Shown here: piece after piece, positions 19,322-27,453 of the stretch
Layout: each line of letters starts with the position of its first letter
Position numbering within the stretch: the first letter of the stretch is position 1
Assembly: GCA_017858255.1 (NCBI GenBank)
Contig: JAFMBV010000023.1
Location: 1-43,151 of the forward strand
Source: Bacteriovoracaceae bacterium
GTDB lineage: Bacteria; Bdellovibrionota; Bacteriovoracia; Bacteriovoracales; Bacteriovoracaceae
Direction: 5' to 3'
Length of the DNA: 43,151 bases
Translations under genes and position numbers: made by a program
The notes under the pieces: model-generated
What the model saw: the letters and a program-made list of their open reading frames with translations, nothing else
The model's database searches: none
Told to the model about the DNA's origin: nothing

Positions 19322-20815
19322 TTATTCTGTGTGAGTTACTGTTACTTTGTTATCAATGAAGGCCAGGGCAAGCTTACGATAGAGTTCTTCTCCCAAAACG
19401 AGATCTTCGATCTGGTGATCAATATTTGGGTTATCATTTACTTCTACAACTAATGCTTCACCATTATGTTCCTTGATATCAACGCCATAAAGTCCATTAC
19501 CAACGAGACCCGTGACTTTAATCGCAGTATCTATGATGAATTTTGGCACTTCGTTTAGTGGAAGAGTTTCGGAGTCTCCAGAGAAATCTTCACCCTTTTT
19601 GGTATGGTCATAAATTTGCCAATGGCCTTTGCTCATAAAGTACTTGCATGCGAATAGTGCTTCACCTCTTAAAACTCCAATACGCCAATCAAAATCAGTT
19701 GGAAGGAATTTTTGAACAAGGACGAGTGCAGATTTTTTAAAGAATTCCACTAGGACATCTTTGAGCTGTTGGCGGTCCAAAACTTTCTTTACTCCTATAC
19801 TAAAACTTCCATCTGGAATCTTTAGAATCATGGGGTAATCAAAACTCTTTTCTAAGTTTTCTAGTGCAGAGTCTTTACTATCGGATACAAAGCGGGAGGG
19901 AAGCTGAGGGATATTATTTCTTACCATAAGATTGTACATAAATACTTTATTTGTACACTTTAAGATACTTTCAGGGTCATCAATTACGACTAGTCCTTCT
20001 TGTTGGGCCCTATGGCTAAATGCATACGTGTGGTTTTTAATCGTCGTTGTTTCGCGAATAAAAAGGCCGTCAAATTCATTTAAACGAGAGAGATCCTTTC
20101 TTGTGACTCGCTCACTATATATACCCATCTCGGCACAAACTTTTTCAAAATTTTGTAAGGCCGTTTCGTCAGATGGTGATAGTTCTTCTTCTGGATTGGT
20201 TAATATAGCAAGATCAAAAATATATGTCCTCCTAGGATTAGGCAGCCTCCACATCTTTGTGGAATAAACCTCTAGGGATTTTCCGAAATACTCTTCTTCG
20301 TCTTCATTGAGCTCTGTAAAAGCAACGGGTGTTACAGAGTCAATTTTCCAAAGCTCTTTTAGATTAAGTTTAATTTCTAAAATCGGGCTTGGGAACTGCT
20401 CATAAATTTGTTGGGCAAGACCTTTAAAGACCGCTTCTTTACTGTGACCAAAGTAGCATCTAAAAGCAATGGCCTTTAAGTCATCTGATTTCTTTGTGAA
20501 ACGTTCTGCGGCCTCTTTAGCCACTTCTTGGAGCTCATCCAGGTCATAGAGATAGAGTTTCTTCTTACTAAGGTCATTGAGAGTTTTTAGAGACGGAATA
20601 ATTCTGTGGCCACGAGACTCTGCTAATAGTGAAGAGTAGTAACCGACAGAGAGATATTTGTAACTCTTGCATAGATTGATAACTCTTGTAGGTCGTTTTC
20701 TTCCACTCCCTAGGTTTAAATCAAAGAGGTAGTCTTTAGCGAGCATTAAATGTTCGGTTGGATAGTAGGCCTTCCAGTCCTCGATATTATCAACTAGTAC
20801 TATGAGCTCTTTCAT
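19322..20815 (-). CDS. RLAN-RimK-like ATP-grasp ligase
   Basis: 497 residues. The N-terminal 190 match the RimK-like ATP-grasp N-terminal (RLAN) domain: VDNIEDWKAYYPTEHLM, then VINLCKSYKYLSVGYYSSLLAE. The C-terminal half (about 290-490) is a RimK-type ATP-grasp: YPMILKIPDGSFSIGV (ATP lysine loop), LVQKFLPTDFDWRIGVL, GNGLYGVDIKE and the metal-binding VVEVNDNPNID. RimK enzymes join amino acids, classically glutamate, to a carboxyl group by an acyl-phosphate. RLAN-RimK genes are known to sit beside GNAT/C39 peptidase genes, exactly as here with the divergent neighbour 101 bases away. Acceptor unknown. It is cytoplasmic, with no signal peptide. Confidence 0.9.
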   Translation of the reverse strand: MKELIVLVDNIEDWKAYYPTEHLMLAKDYLFDLNLGSGRKRPTRVINLCKSYKYLSVGYYSSLLAESRGHRIIPSLKTLNDLSKKKLYLYDLDELQEVAKEAAERFTKKSDDLKAIAFRCYFGHSKEAVFKGLAQQIYEQFPSPILEIKLNLKELWKIDSVTPVAFTELNEDEEEYFGKSLEVYSTKMWRLPNPRRTYIFDLAILTNPEEELSPSDETALQNFEKVCAEMGIYSERVTRKDLSRLNEFDGLFIRETTTIKNHTYAFSHRAQQEGLVVIDDPESILKCTNKVFMYNLMVRNNIPQLPSRFVSDSKDSALENLEKSFDYPMILKIPDGSFSIGVKKVLDRQQLKDVLVEFFKKSALVLVQKFLPTDFDWRIGVLRGEALFACKYFMSKGHWQIYDHTKKGEDFSGDSETLPLNEVPKFIIDTAIKVTGLVGNGLYGVDIKEHNGEALVVEVNDNPNIDHQIEDLVLGEELYRKLALAFIDNKVTVTHTE

Positions 20816-20823
20816 TTTTCCTC

Positions 20824-20855
20824 ATTAAGCCTATTTGTGTTTTTTTTATTAAGCC
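20824..20855. promoter_or_regulatory. Direct repeat in the divergent control region
   Basis: ATTAAGCC occurs at 20824-20831 and 20848-20855, 24 bases apart, in the 101-base gap between the divergent RLAN-RimK and GNAT-C39 genes. It may be a shared binding site. Confidence 0.3.
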
Positions 20856-20916
20856 AATATTTAGCTTTGATGTTAGTATGGGACAACTTTTTGGTCACTA
20901 AAATAAGAGAGAAAAA

Positions 20917-22011
20917 ATGAAATTTCGGGCCGGAAAAAAGTCAGACATATCTGCCCTTGTGGGGTTGGAAAAGAAATCCTTTGATAGTGATCAACTTAGT
21001 GACAGAAGCTTCAAGTATTTTATGGACTTATCTCATGGAGAGATTCTTGTCCTTGAGGTAGGGGGAGAAATTGTTGGTTATGGAGTACTCGTTTTTCATC
21101 GAGGTACGGCCTTGGCCCGCCTTTACTCTCTTGCGATTGATAAACGCCATAGTGGCAAGGGTCTTGGCCGTAAACTCCTGAATCGTTTAGAGGGGCTGGC
21201 CCGTGAAAGAGGCTGCACCTACCTTCGCTTGGAGGTCAAGTCTTCCAATAAATCAGCTATCTCCCTTTATGACTCTTGCGGCTACCGGCGCTTTGCTCAC
21301 AAAGAGAATTACTATGAAGACCAAGAAGATGCTGAATGTTATGAAAAGAGGATTCGTGAGCTTGAGGGCAAGCTTATTAAGGGACCTAAGGTTCCATACT
21401 ATCAACAAACTACCGACTTTACCTGTGGCCCTTCGAGCCTCTTAATGGGGATGAAAGCTCTTAACCGAAAGATAAAGTTGAATCGTGAGCATGAGATTGA
21501 GCTTTGGAGAGAGGCGACGACAATATTTATGACCAGCGGTCACGGAGGTTGTGGTCCTCACGGGCTTGCTCTAGCAGCCCATATTAGGGGTTTTGAAGTT
21601 GAACTTTATATAAATACTTCTGCTTCTTTATTCGTGCAAGGGGTTCGTTCAGCTCATAAAAAAGAAGTCATCCAGCTAGTTCAAAAGTCTTTTGAAAAGA
21701 AAATTAGGAAAGAAAAAATTAAGGTTTTTAAAGATGAATATGATTGGGACACCATTAAAGATATTTTTGCTTATGGGGGCATACCAGTCCTCCTGATAAG
21801 TGCTTACAGGCTTACCGAGACTAAGGCGCCCCATTGGATAGTGTTGACTGCCATGGAAGGAGATTTTATCTATTTTCATGATCCAGAAGTAGATAAGGAT
21901 CAGTTGGCAACGGATAATATTAACGTGCCTGTAAGACGAGATGAGTTTGAACTTATGGCCAAATTTGGGTCTAGCCAATTAAAGTCGATTGTCGCCATTT
22001 ATAAAAAGTAA
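20917..22011 (+). CDS. GNAT acetyltransferase / C39-like peptidase fusion
   Basis: 364 residues. Residues 1-145 form a GNAT domain with the acetyl-CoA loop in RLYSLAIDKRHSGKGLGRKLLNRLE (RxxGxG/A type) and the C-terminal SAISLYDSCGYRR. Residues 157-360 form a papain-fold peptidase of the C39/DUF3335 type: catalytic Cys170 in DFTCGPSSLLMGM, His306 in APHWIVLTA and Asp322 in YFHDPE. This fusion is a known partner of RLAN-RimK ligases, so a ligase plus a peptidase and acetyltransferase may make and trim or cap a peptide or amide. It is cytoplasmic, as there is no signal sequence. The ribosome site is AGAGAG. Confidence 0.9.
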   Translation: MKFRAGKKSDISALVGLEKKSFDSDQLSDRSFKYFMDLSHGEILVLEVGGEIVGYGVLVFHRGTALARLYSLAIDKRHSGKGLGRKLLNRLEGLARERGCTYLRLEVKSSNKSAISLYDSCGYRRFAHKENYYEDQEDAECYEKRIRELEGKLIKGPKVPYYQQTTDFTCGPSSLLMGMKALNRKIKLNREHEIELWREATTIFMTSGHGGCGPHGLALAAHIRGFEVELYINTSASLFVQGVRSAHKKEVIQLVQKSFEKKIRKEKIKVFKDEYDWDTIKDIFAYGGIPVLLISAYRLTETKAPHWIVLTAMEGDFIYFHDPEVDKDQLATDNINVPVRRDEFELMAKFGSSQLKSIVAIYKK

Positions 22012-23202: not shown

Positions 23203-23844
23203 TTATTTGATCTTCTTTTGGCGTAAATAAGTGATATGGCCAGTCTCTATGCCATTAAAGGACTGGGGAATGGTTTCGGTTATAACGTAGCCCATTTTGT
23301 CATAGAGCGCCTGTGCCGGCTCCATATAGGGCTCATCTGACGTGTAAAGCCTTAGATAGCTAATTTGCTGGGATAAGGCATAGTCTTCAGCAAAGTTGAT
23401 CAGCGCTCTTCCGAGACCGAGGCCTCTTGCACTTTCGCTAACGACTAATGAGGTTATCCAAAGGGCCTCTTTGTGATCTTTTTTACTCTTATAAAGACCA
23501 ATGACTGCTCGTACAACTTGCGTTTCCGGGTCCTTTGAGATGAAGTACTTAATCCATCCATCCCGGTACCAGTTGTTCATAATTTTCTTATAACGAGGAT
23601 CACCTAATGAACCTCTAACATCATTTCTAATGAGCTTTAAATGTACCTTGTCCTCACTATCGGCAAAGTATTTTTGAATGAGTTTGATCGTTTGATCCCG
23701 GTCACCTTGAGATAGGGGGTGAATAGTACTCATAGGCGACAGTAGAAGTCTGGCATTGTCGTAACATGTTCCCTGGATTGGATTAATCCAGATAAAAAAC
23801 GTCAGCAATAGGATTTTCAATAAATGATATCGATTCACCAACAT
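23203..23844 (-). CDS. GNAT acetyltransferase with an N-terminal signal or anchor
   Basis: 213 residues. Residues 40-205 are a clear GNAT domain: WITSLVVSESARGLGLGRALINFAE holds the acetyl-CoA pyrophosphate loop (RGLGLG), and PAQALYDKMGYV is the usual C-terminal helix-strand. Residues 1-25 (LKILLLTFFIWINPIQG) look like a signal peptide or anchor, which is unexpected because acetyl-CoA is cytoplasmic. A later start at the Met at 23733 would give a cytoplasmic enzyme, but neither start has a good ribosome site. Divergent from the large ligase gene with 78 bases between. Confidence 0.8.
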   Translation of the reverse strand: MLVNRYHLLKILLLTFFIWINPIQGTCYDNARLLLSPMSTIHPLSQGDRDQTIKLIQKYFADSEDKVHLKLIRNDVRGSLGDPRYKKIMNNWYRDGWIKYFISKDPETQVVRAVIGLYKSKKDHKEALWITSLVVSESARGLGLGRALINFAEDYALSQQISYLRLYTSDEPYMEPAQALYDKMGYVITETIPQSFNGIETGHITYLRQKKIK

Positions 23845-23922
23845 TTATCGTCACGAATTATTAAAGGCTTTAGTTTGAGATGTCGAAAAGTCTAAGGCAT
23901 TTAAAGTAGAGGGAGTTATCAC

Positions 23923-26900
23923 TTGAAACTGTTTAATTTTAAATATCTAATTCCTTTGATCTTAATGATCTCCATATCTTGTAGTGTCTCCTATGATTAT
24001 TCTTCGGCATTTAGAAATCCTTCTTCGGATGATCCCGAGTATCAAAAAATTGTGAACAAAGATTTAGTTAGTTATGGTGAGAAAGGTCCTAGTGAATGGG
24101 TTAAATCTCAAGTTGAGACATTTCTAAGTAATACTGACTCTCTTGATGCATCCTTACCACCTAACCTAAATGAGTCACGCTCCGTGAGCATAGTGGCAAA
24201 GAGAAATCCCTTTAGGGATATTCTTTATAAAGAAGGCTTCGTTGAGGCCAGTGATCGTACACTTTTTATGTTTGATAAATTATTTATGGCAAGGATTCTT
24301 GAGAATTACCTAGGTGAGTCCTTTAGAACCTATCACCAAAAGACAGATGGCCTTAAAGAATTTCTTATGAATAAGGGAATTGTGGCCAGAGATGGGCGAG
24401 TCGTAAAGTCTGCCCAAGAAATCAAGGCTTTATTTGAACTTGAATTTCCTCAAGGCTTTATCTTAAAGCCACCTGTTGGGATGAGTTCTGCAGGAAAATC
24501 ATTTTATAAAGATCCTCAAGAAATTGTGGAATTAATTATGAAGCAAGATGGAGAAATCTATTCTCCAGAAGAGGTCGAGCGCCCCTTTCATTGGAAGAGG
24601 GTCCGTCGCTTTACTTCCGGAGAGCGCTATATCATTCAAGAGAAGCTTGAAGGGACCAGTGGTGTTGGTGGTAATGGTAATTATGGCGATTTTAATGAGT
24701 TTAGAGTGCACTCATTTTATGACAAAGTTGTTGATGGTGGTACGGAGACTCGTTGGTACACAAAGAATAGTGAACAAAAGAACAAACAAGTTAATGAGTT
24801 TGTTCAGGGTCTATTAGATAAACTGCCTAAAGAGTTAACCTACAAGCAGGCATGGTCCTTTGACGTTTTCTGGCTACCAGACGGACAAATGCGTCTGATA
24901 GAAGTAAATACCAATTGGGGTGAGGCCGGAAATTGGTCAGGCTTCTTTAGAACACCAAAAACTCTCGGGGCCTATATTCGTCATTTTGAAAAGCGTTTTA
25001 AATGGAGATTTGAAGGAGTTTCAGGGTGGTTGCTTCGTAATAATTGGGGCAATCTTCGCAATCATATTGATCATGAAAAATATGAGTACTGGGAAGACCT
25101 TAAGAATTGGTTCAAAGATAATGTTGCAGATAAATTTGTTAAGAGGAAAACTGCGGAGAGCTTAGAGTATTTTAGAGAGACTCCTTGTGAAGGGGCAATG
25201 TGCTTTAGCTCGCGTTTCTTCTATGCTCCCTACGAAGCTCCTCGCGTTGGATTAGAAGTTGAACTTACTGGTCTTAGTCAAAAACAAATAGTCACTGAAC
25301 TTCAACAAAGTATTGGTGGGATTATCGAGTCTCGTGATGATGCTTATGAGTATATAGATCCGGCCACAAAGAAAAAGAAAACGGTAAATTCACAGGTTTG
25401 GAAGATTAAAAAAAGCAAGATTGGTAAAGTCCTTGTTGTCGTGGAAGACAATGGTCTTGATATGAACGATCTTCAGACCTCGACAAGAGAATCCAAAGTC
25501 ATCGAAGTTATAACTGAACCCATAGAGCATAAACAGGTGCAATTATTTCAAATGGGTCTTAACCGGTTAGTGGCGGCCGGTGCAAGAGGCACCAATAGCG
25601 AAACACCGGTTTCAATTCAGGTGAATGTTGAAATCGTTGATAAAAAACATCCAAAGTTAGAGAGTGAATTTCTCATCAACCTAATGAGGAACTATTATCG
25701 AGATGAAAACTTTTCCACGATCCAAAAAGAAATTCCCCTTATTGCGGGGAGAGAAAACTATGTGGGGGTCTATAGTCCAGGCTTCATGGATCGCTTATTT
25801 GAACAAGACTATAAACCTAGCATGCGTGAACTCTTTGATGATTTCTTCTATCGCCAAAGTGCAGAGTATCTTGGCAACTTAGAAGCATGGGATGATGACA
25901 TTACAAGCATTCAAAAGTTTGTTAAAGAACAACTTCCCGCACAGGGGTTTGAGTCCATTCTAAAGGTATTTAAGTGGAATGATTTGAGAGTGAGTTCTGC
26001 TCTTATAGAGCAATACCCCGATGATTGGATAAGTGATTACTTAGTTAAAACAGATTGGGTTAAACCACGACCTCTTGTAGAGTTTCGCAGGCCTAACAAT
26101 AACTTTAATGCTCTAGAAGCAACAAAGAGTGTTGTTGGTATTGTTCAACGCTCAAGAGAAGGCGAGTTTAGCTACCCCGAAGAAGTTGCCAAACGCCATG
26201 GCATAGACGTCGATGGGGTAAAAGCAATCATGGCGATTGAGAACCCTTACGAGAAACCTTATATCGTCAGACAATTCTTAGGGGATCCAGAAAATCTCAG
26301 TGACTCTAAGGAGTATGACGAGTTCTTAAGTTTGAAGAAGTTCGCTTATAAACGCTCCGTTGCCCTTTGGGTGGATATGAAAAAACCTGTGCGAGCGCCA
26401 TTTATTCTACCTGGGGAGAGTGTTGTCTTTCATCGTTTACCCGACACTGGTCTTAATATTATGGGTAAGTACAACCCCGCGCTAGTAAATGCAGAGCTTT
26501 CCAAGGTTTTAGATCATAAGTATGTTGAGGCGATGTTTTGGGAGAAGTATGCTCCAAGTGTCATGCCTAAGACAAAGCTTCTCGGTGAGATGACAACGGA
26601 TAAGATAAAACCAAAAGACTTAAGAGGGCTTCTTAATAAAGAATTTCCTAATGGTTGGGTAATTAAAGGGGTTTGGGATAATGCAACTCAAGCGGACTTC
26701 CTTGTTACTAATGAGACTGATCTTGAAGAGGAAATTCAAAAATATAAGAACAACCAAGTTGATTTTATAAAGTACATGCAGGAACTACAAAAGGATTTTG
26801 GTGCCTCAAACCCCGACCTCTTTGTGAGAAAGCTTAGAGAGAGGCCAGAGTTCATGGGCTATCGAATAAATAAATTTTTAAAGAGCCCCGAACTTTCTAT

Positions 26901-27453
26901 TGTTCAAGAAAAACTTAGTATTCAAGAAGAGTTTCGAGTTGAGGTAATTTCTGGCCGAGTATTGGGGGATGGTTCAACTATTCCTAGGTATCAATATGAA
27001 TATCCTGATAATGATAATTGGCAGAATGATCCAAATATTAAGAGAGTGGAGAGTTACGCTCAGGATGCGTTAGATAAACTGCCACCGGAATTAAGAGGCA
27101 TGACCTTTGGGATGGATGTCGCAGTTTTAAAAGATGGAACAATTAAAATGATCGAATCCAACCCTCAAGGTAATTCTGGATTTCTTGCCTATGATAAAAG
27201 GTCTGTGAAGGCGCTCGATAAATTTCTCATAAAGTATCCTGAGATGGTTAAAAGTGGGAAAGTTCAATTAGGCATGGAGCCTGTTAATCAGATAAAATGG
27301 ATGAAGACTTTTATCGAAGGCGAGTTAAAAATGGATATGGAAGTTCACTATCCGCATCTTACATTTTTGAATACTAAGGTCGTCTATACCAAACGCTATG
27401 GCCGCTCATGTCGCGCTCTTCTTCTTCCTTTGTTGAGATTAAAGTCTAATTAG
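23923..27453 (+). CDS. Exported triple ligase: ATP-grasp, amidoligase-like, ATP-grasp
   Basis: 1176 residues from a TTG start with GAGGGAG eight bases upstream. Residues 1-20 are a signal sequence ending ISIS-Cys20, a relaxed lipobox. Residues about 110-365 are ATP-grasp-like: FILKPPVGMSSAGKS, RYIIQEKLEG, EFRVH and the metal-binding RLIEVNTNWG. Residues 435-745 resemble the glutamine-synthetase-like Amidoligase_2 fold: APRVGLEVELTGLS, VIEVITEPI, SIQVNVEIVD and PLVEFRRPN, with several Glu as likely metal ligands. Residues 850-1110 are a second ATP-grasp: GWVIKGVWDN, SIVQEKLSIQEEFRVE, TFGMDVAVLKDG and IKMIESNPQGN. It would make three amide- or ester-forming reactions, or assemble a peptide. How it gets ATP outside the cytoplasm is unclear. 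Confidence 0.75.
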   Translation: MKLFNFKYLIPLILMISISCSVSYDYSSAFRNPSSDDPEYQKIVNKDLVSYGEKGPSEWVKSQVETFLSNTDSLDASLPPNLNESRSVSIVAKRNPFRDILYKEGFVEASDRTLFMFDKLFMARILENYLGESFRTYHQKTDGLKEFLMNKGIVARDGRVVKSAQEIKALFELEFPQGFILKPPVGMSSAGKSFYKDPQEIVELIMKQDGEIYSPEEVERPFHWKRVRRFTSGERYIIQEKLEGTSGVGGNGNYGDFNEFRVHSFYDKVVDGGTETRWYTKNSEQKNKQVNEFVQGLLDKLPKELTYKQAWSFDVFWLPDGQMRLIEVNTNWGEAGNWSGFFRTPKTLGAYIRHFEKRFKWRFEGVSGWLLRNNWGNLRNHIDHEKYEYWEDLKNWFKDNVADKFVKRKTAESLEYFRETPCEGAMCFSSRFFYAPYEAPRVGLEVELTGLSQKQIVTELQQSIGGIIESRDDAYEYIDPATKKKKTVNSQVWKIKKSKIGKVLVVVEDNGLDMNDLQTSTRESKVIEVITEPIEHKQVQLFQMGLNRLVAAGARGTNSETPVSIQVNVEIVDKKHPKLESEFLINLMRNYYRDENFSTIQKEIPLIAGRENYVGVYSPGFMDRLFEQDYKPSMRELFDDFFYRQSAEYLGNLEAWDDDITSIQKFVKEQLPAQGFESILKVFKWNDLRVSSALIEQYPDDWISDYLVKTDWVKPRPLVEFRRPNNNFNALEATKSVVGIVQRSREGEFSYPEEVAKRHGIDVDGVKAIMAIENPYEKPYIVRQFLGDPENLSDSKEYDEFLSLKKFAYKRSVALWVDMKKPVRAPFILPGESVVFHRLPDTGLNIMGKYNPALVNAELSKVLDHKYVEAMFWEKYAPSVMPKTKLLGEMTTDKIKPKDLRGLLNKEFPNGWVIKGVWDNATQADFLVTNETDLEEEIQKYKNNQVDFIKYMQELQKDFGASNPDLFVRKLRERPEFMGYRINKFLKSPELSIVQEKLSIQEEFRVEVISGRVLGDGSTIPRYQYEYPDNDNWQNDPNIKRVESYAQDALDKLPPELRGMTFGMDVAVLKDGTIKMIESNPQGNSGFLAYDKRSVKALDKFLIKYPEMVKSGKVQLGMEPVNQIKWMKTFIEGELKMDMEVHYPHLTFLNTKVVYTKRYGRSCRALLLPLLRLKSN

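Follow-up and report, generated by a model that had tools for sequence, protein, structure and literature searches.

ATP-dependent ligases are usually taken to be cytoplasmic enzymes. The Amidoligase_2 / COOH-NH2 ligase superfamily was reportedly described by Iyer et al. in 2009. The R2K enzymes (CDC123, R2K.2 and R2K.3) are predicted peptide ligases, and ATP-grasp genes are on record in operons that also encode COOH-NH2 ligases, GNATs and further ligases (Burroughs et al. 2015, PMC4431377). As far as the consulted part of that paper goes, bacterial R2K.2 and R2K.3 are described with neither signal peptides nor a fusion to an amidoligase. RloABC of Pseudomonas aeruginosa, an envelope-related system, links an ATP-grasp protein to exported peptidases, but there the ATP-grasp protein is cytosolic, the proteases alone are exported and an amidoligase is absent (PMC12239564). 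Glutathione-synthetase-like ATP-grasp effectors of nematodes have gained signal peptides, keep their ATP site and are delivered into host cells, yet they are eukaryotic, belong to another ATP-grasp family and carry no fused amidoligase (PMC5919673). Metazoan C7orf58 is a predicted secreted TTL-like ATP-grasp amino-acid ligase, but it is an animal protein fused to a PC-esterase (PMC2824669). In the papers that we searched, no exported ATP-grasp/amidoligase system of bacteria is described.

The window (the whole stretch of 43,151 nucleotides that was analysed) contains a gene that appears to encode such a system in one polypeptide (Table 1). A first-pass annotation, made from the sequence, had proposed a single exported chain in which two ATP-grasp domains flank an amidoligase domain. 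Pfam matches, predicted folds and conserved residues bear this out.

Table 1. Features of the fused gene and its divergent neighbour, in window coordinates
Feature	Position	Strand	Details
GNAT acetyltransferase, divergent	23203..23844	-	own signal peptide; Pfam PF00583 2.2e-12
Shine-Dalgarno-like GAGGGAG	23909..23915	+	7 nt 5' of TTG start; sequence and start-codon table
Fused gene	23923..27453	+	1176 aa: signal peptide, ATP-grasp I, amidoligase, ATP-grasp II; ORF list and profile ranges
Signal peptide, residues 1-20	23923..23982	+	hydrophobic window mean 2.55; signals in relatives too
ATP-grasp domain I, residues 94-381	24202..25065	+	model pLDDT 85; VIA Z about 10
Amidoligase (glutamine-synthetase fold), residues 440-744	25240..26154	+	Pfam PF12224; Z 11.1 to 4bax
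ATP-grasp domain II, R2K type, residues 851-1109	26473..27249	+	Pfam R2K_3/R2K_2; Z 11-12
C-terminal C-R-A-L-L (C1163)	27409..27423	+	matches C-x-x-h-F/L tail of split relatives

The domain limits first read from the sequence (residues 110-365, 435-745 and 850-1110) agree with our profile ranges, and the pre-ATP-grasp part of domain II probably starts at about residue 777. In Pfam, Amidoligase_2 matches residues 441-644 with 54.3 bits (cut-off 22), and domain II is matched at about 986-1094 by R2K_3 (38.2 bits, cut-off 26.3) and R2K_2 (35.4 bits, cut-off 26.2). No Pfam model matched domain I, which resembles domain II (BLASTP E 4e-10) and a stand-alone 309-aa protein of genome G127 (34-35% identity). 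Structure prediction, the check that had been suggested, gave AlphaFold models (residues 25-425, mean pLDDT 85.0; residues 426-1176, mean pLDDT 82.7) with an ATP-grasp, a glutamine-synthetase and a second ATP-grasp fold, their ATP and metal residues kept. In VIA comparisons, the model of domain I matches Ddl and the tubulin tyrosine ligases TTL and TTLL; that of the amidoligase superimposes on glutamine synthetase 4bax with an rmsd of 3.6 A over 192 residues, and that of domain II resembles Ddl, LysX and RimK.

Likeness of fold is by itself no proof of function. Both ATP-grasp end motifs noted earlier, LIEVNTNWG (E327, N329) and MIESNPQGN (E1078, N1080), occur in the open reading frame, each preceded by its QEK and E-x-R strands (IIQEK and EFRVH; IVQEK and EFRVE). 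The alignment shows as conserved K182, E259, R261, D314, E327 and N329 in domain I; E445, E447, E528, N568, E570, E720 and R722 in the amidoligase; and K915, E1003, R1005, D1065, E1078 and N1080 in domain II. The ATP-grasp signature (strand-2 Lys, Arg and Asp of the kinase-like domain, final E-x-N) is complete in both ATP-grasp domains. That the expected ATP- and metal-binding residues are intact in all three domains, which are predicted to bind these ligands, is thus well supported at the level of the alignment.

How do these domains compare with their described relatives? Domain II scores above both R2K cut-offs, as an R2K enzyme would (PMC4431377), whereas domain I has no such match. The final strand of R2K.3 reads E-x-G-D; both domains of the fused protein have E-x-N, and in this respect neither is R2K.3. 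R2K enzymes carry a second Lys or Arg in the loop that follows the strand-2 lysine; in what is putatively the same loop, several relatives have T-D-K and the fused protein has T-N-E. With Amidoligase_2 (PF12224) the central domain shares the Pfam match, the glutamine-synthetase fold, conserved Glu, Asn and Arg residues, and cytosolic relatives that occur with Peptidase_C26. The exported clade differs from that family in being longer, in carrying signal peptides and in often being fused to an ATP-grasp domain.

The reading frame, open over 1176 residues, starts with TTG. An alternative start could in principle remove the signal, but the start-codon table favours TTG, the only one of the six candidates that has a Shine-Dalgarno-like site (the five other in-frame start codons within the first 100 have none). 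At the N-terminus, MKLFNFKYLIPLILMISISC has the character of a signal peptide that ends at C20. It had been annotated as either a lipoprotein or a Sec signal. The Sec signal stands, given the start site and the signals of relatives, and the lipoprotein label is uncertain: the lipobox S-I-S-C is imperfect, with an atypical residue at -3 compared with [LVI][ASTVI][GAS]C, and cleavage by SPI instead of SPII is possible. Two lysines (K2 and K7) precede the hydrophobic stretch and acidic residues follow it, which predicts that the enzyme part lies outside. A Sec-type signal behind a supported start codon is thus a well-supported prediction.

A single signal is weak evidence, since the same crude hydrophobicity test is passed by 43% of the remaining long ORFs at the retrieved loci. 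The case rests on conservation and contrast. Amidoligases in genomes of the phylum fall into two clades: the short proteins have no signal and are presumably cytosolic, whereas the long ones carry signal peptides. All long-type proteins with a readable N-terminus have a hydrophobic signal, compared with none of the short type except the borderline L089. In the tree, the exported amidoligases are one clade (support 100/99) against three cytosolic rows. ATP-grasp proteins with an intact start behave similarly: nearly all of those outside exopolysaccharide-type operons carry a signal, whereas four of four inside such operons do not. Cysteine is also depleted in the conserved domains of exported members (9 among 12,675 residues, compared with 7 among 1,744 in cytosolic relatives; Fisher P 0.0016, an optimistic value because the rows are related), which fits export. 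We reject the idea that the signal is an accident of one gene, as signals are conserved in relatives, and consider export of the fused protein a well-supported prediction.

Profile searches covered 369 genomes of the phylum, which we take to be Bdellovibrionota (a Bdellovibrionaceae probe matches three 16S genes of genus g83 exactly). A Bacteriovoracaceae 16S probe gave no match, and the assembly with the fused gene yielded no 16S gene. ATP-grasp I/II turned up in 31 of the 369 genomes, the amidoligase in 23. Among the 369, the three-domain fusion occurs in this genome only. Elsewhere the amidoligase is joined to ATP-grasp II (L054, L067, L068, L069, L134, L135, L140) or has no ATP-grasp fusion (L070, L082, L137, L138), and ATP-grasp I also exists as a stand-alone protein. 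In G254 an amidoligase-ATP-grasp II gene and an ATP-grasp I gene overlap by 22 nt; in G192 an ATP-grasp I gene overlaps an amidoligase gene by 25 nt and is followed by genes for two large exported-type proteins, c18 and c25. All four split proteins of these two genomes carry signals. At about 30-40% identity, nearly all split cassettes keep every catalytic residue listed above, as does the fused protein.

Because a joint alignment of all relatives placed ATP-grasp I onto ATP-grasp II, the two halves were modelled separately. They are distinct groups in the tree (100/99). Domain II of the fused protein pairs with its G254 counterpart (100/99), and domain I groups with G192 and G278 with weaker support. 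Scans of genome contigs and viral contigs confirmed no relative, and each tblastn search of plasmids and phages yielded either nothing or a single weak ATP-grasp match. A match in G032 was rejected, as it lies in a MoxR-type ATPase. The genome studied here also has a second Amidoligase_2 protein (L008:5488-8394), at least 968 residues long and with a signal peptide; its gene is cut by the contig end.

Exported amide hydrolases accompany some relatives. Six amidoligase-ATP-grasp II loci adjoin a BPL_N/GATase-fold protein, with signals in all six and conserved nucleophile-type Cys, His and Glu; two of these loci are cut by contig ends to ATP-grasp II only. In G018 and G072, a gene next to the cytosolic amidoligase is of class-I glutamine-amidotransferase type (a Peptidase_C26 match in G018), so that the exported pair parallels the cytosolic one. 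In the genome with the fusion we found no amidase partner: the only match, a BPL_N candidate, proved on inspection by eye to be PurQ. The c18 loci of G006 (same genus), G050, G011 and G252 have Peptidase_S58 and/or a carbon-nitrogen hydrolase nearby, several with signals. No Pfam model matched c18; searches of PDB sequences gave weak matches only for the amidoligase and c18 profiles and none for the fused protein and the ATP-grasp I profile, and NCBIfam and PADLOC returned no match. We dropped c18N as a further amidoligase, since the likeness is one short motif (FGFESEY) and profile comparison gave no support. One locus (L150:2979-13510) combines exported-looking c18C paralogues, c18N, two carbon-nitrogen hydrolases, a BPL_N protein and a Peptidase_S58 protein.

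Many of these exported proteins have a cysteine motif at one end. Across 46 genes of the exported families, the terminal regions (the 30 residues that follow the signal and the final 25 residues) contain C-x-x-[VLIM]-[FLYM] 21 times and all other positions contain it once; the reversed motif shows no terminal bias in the same count. As the motif was spotted before it was counted, these numbers do not amount to an independent test. Several ATP-grasp I and c18 proteins have the motif at the N-terminus; the amidoligases, the fused protein included, have it at the C-terminus. Outside the families, four of five terminal occurrences lie in the same loci (L137, L150). A terminal C-x-x-h-F/L is common to unrelated exported proteins (L070:5250-9937, L137:12097-13170 and L150).

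Around the fused gene itself conservation is patchy. At DNA level, four of the six congeners share a cytosolic RLAN/RimK ATP-grasp ligase gene and a GNAT-C39-like peptidase gene (19322-22011; 69-77% identity) but not the remaining queried stretch, fused gene included; the distribution of the fused gene within the genus is therefore patchy. The divergent GNAT gene lies 78 bp from the fused gene. Its signal makes it a second exported-type enzyme with a cytoplasmic cofactor, and any functional tie between the two is hypothetical.

ATP is normally absent outside the cell, which makes the export of ligases odd. The phylum consists largely of predatory bacteria, and it is from the phylum that we infer predation by the source organism. 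We tentatively favour the reading that the fused protein is a Sec-exported, multi-step carboxylate-amine ligase whose three active sites would work outside the cytoplasm, most plausibly on ATP from prey. The protein would leave by Sec and lose its signal, and its two ATP-grasp domains and one amidoligase domain would then form amide bonds successively on one substrate, probably to attach amino acids or a short peptide to a polymer of the envelope or of the prey. Where exported amide hydrolases lie beside relatives, their role would be to trim the bond or undo it. In this picture the activity, the order of the steps, the substrate, the place of action and the source of ATP are all extrapolated. 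Ordered assembly of one product, as first proposed, fits the split forms, because the three modules are elsewhere separate adjacent genes; any order of steps or substrate is conjecture. A Sec signal is enough for secretion to the supernatant in Bdellovibrio bacteriovorus (PMC12622784), and the nematode effectors set a precedent for ATP-grasp enzymes that acquire signals and reach the cells of a victim (PMC5919673).

The first-pass annotation had offered three ways around the lack of ATP. An anchor that faces the cytoplasm is unlikely, as the charge pattern places the enzyme outside and the signals of relatives are ordinary. Action during export is unlikely too, since Sec translocates unfolded chains. 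ATP from lysed prey, used outside the predator's cytoplasm during predation, is our best guess. Against our favoured reading, the fusion was found in one genome only, a family of exported relatives has lost its site (see below), no amidase partner was found in this genome and single signals are weak evidence (see above).

One could also argue that the enzyme decorates the cell's own peptidoglycan or exopolysaccharide, in the periplasm or at the surface, with trace ATP or another phosphate donor. The topology is compatible with this, and leaderless ATP-grasp I relatives sit in exopolysaccharide-type operons (L009, L071, L073, L063) with ABC exporter, deacetylase-like and glycosyltransferase-like genes (identities read by eye). 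However, we see no site for another donor, the class's ATP residues are kept and we know of no periplasmic supply of ATP. We regard such a role as rather unlikely. One of these operons (L063:9101-12690), of polysaccharide type, has ATP-grasp I and c18 halves without a leader, which suggests a cytosolic counterpart of the exported system.

Alternatively, the exported folds could serve as binding modules, or catalyse a reaction without ATP turnover. In f22, a family of ATP-grasp I proteins with export signals (L044-L048, L055, L056, L058-L061), every aligned member has lost the strand-2 lysine (K182 to R) and N329, and the final motif is D-x-V, once E-x-I, in place of E-x-N. These proteins are probably altered or inactive. 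Export is hence compatible with loss of the canonical site, and some exported members may be inactive. In L135, moreover, E445 is replaced by K. The fused protein and nearly all split cassettes nevertheless retain the listed residues, which makes an altered role improbable here. Least convincing of all is a cytosolic enzyme whose signal is a misreading, is bypassed by an internal start or acts as an anchor with the catalytic part inside: it would put the protein where ATP is, and internal GTG codons exist (24052, 24184 and 24193), but these have no Shine-Dalgarno sequence, and the positive N-terminus, the conserved signals of relatives and the cysteine depletion all speak for export.

Returning to the exported ligase that we favour, a broader picture is conceivable, if somewhat doubtful. 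Bdellovibrionota might export a toolkit for amide bonds, made of two ATP-grasp ligases, a glutamine-synthetase-type amidoligase and several amide hydrolases, that performs ATP-dependent chemistry with prey ATP beyond the predator's own cytoplasm. Some parts would share the terminal C-x-x-h-F/L as a tag for holding together or attaching, and the fused protein would be the fused form of this toolkit. With an exported clade whose active sites are intact, one can test directly whether predatory bacteria carry out ATP-driven reactions beyond their cytoplasm, and the exported ligases are candidate new enzymes for modifying cell-envelope polymers.
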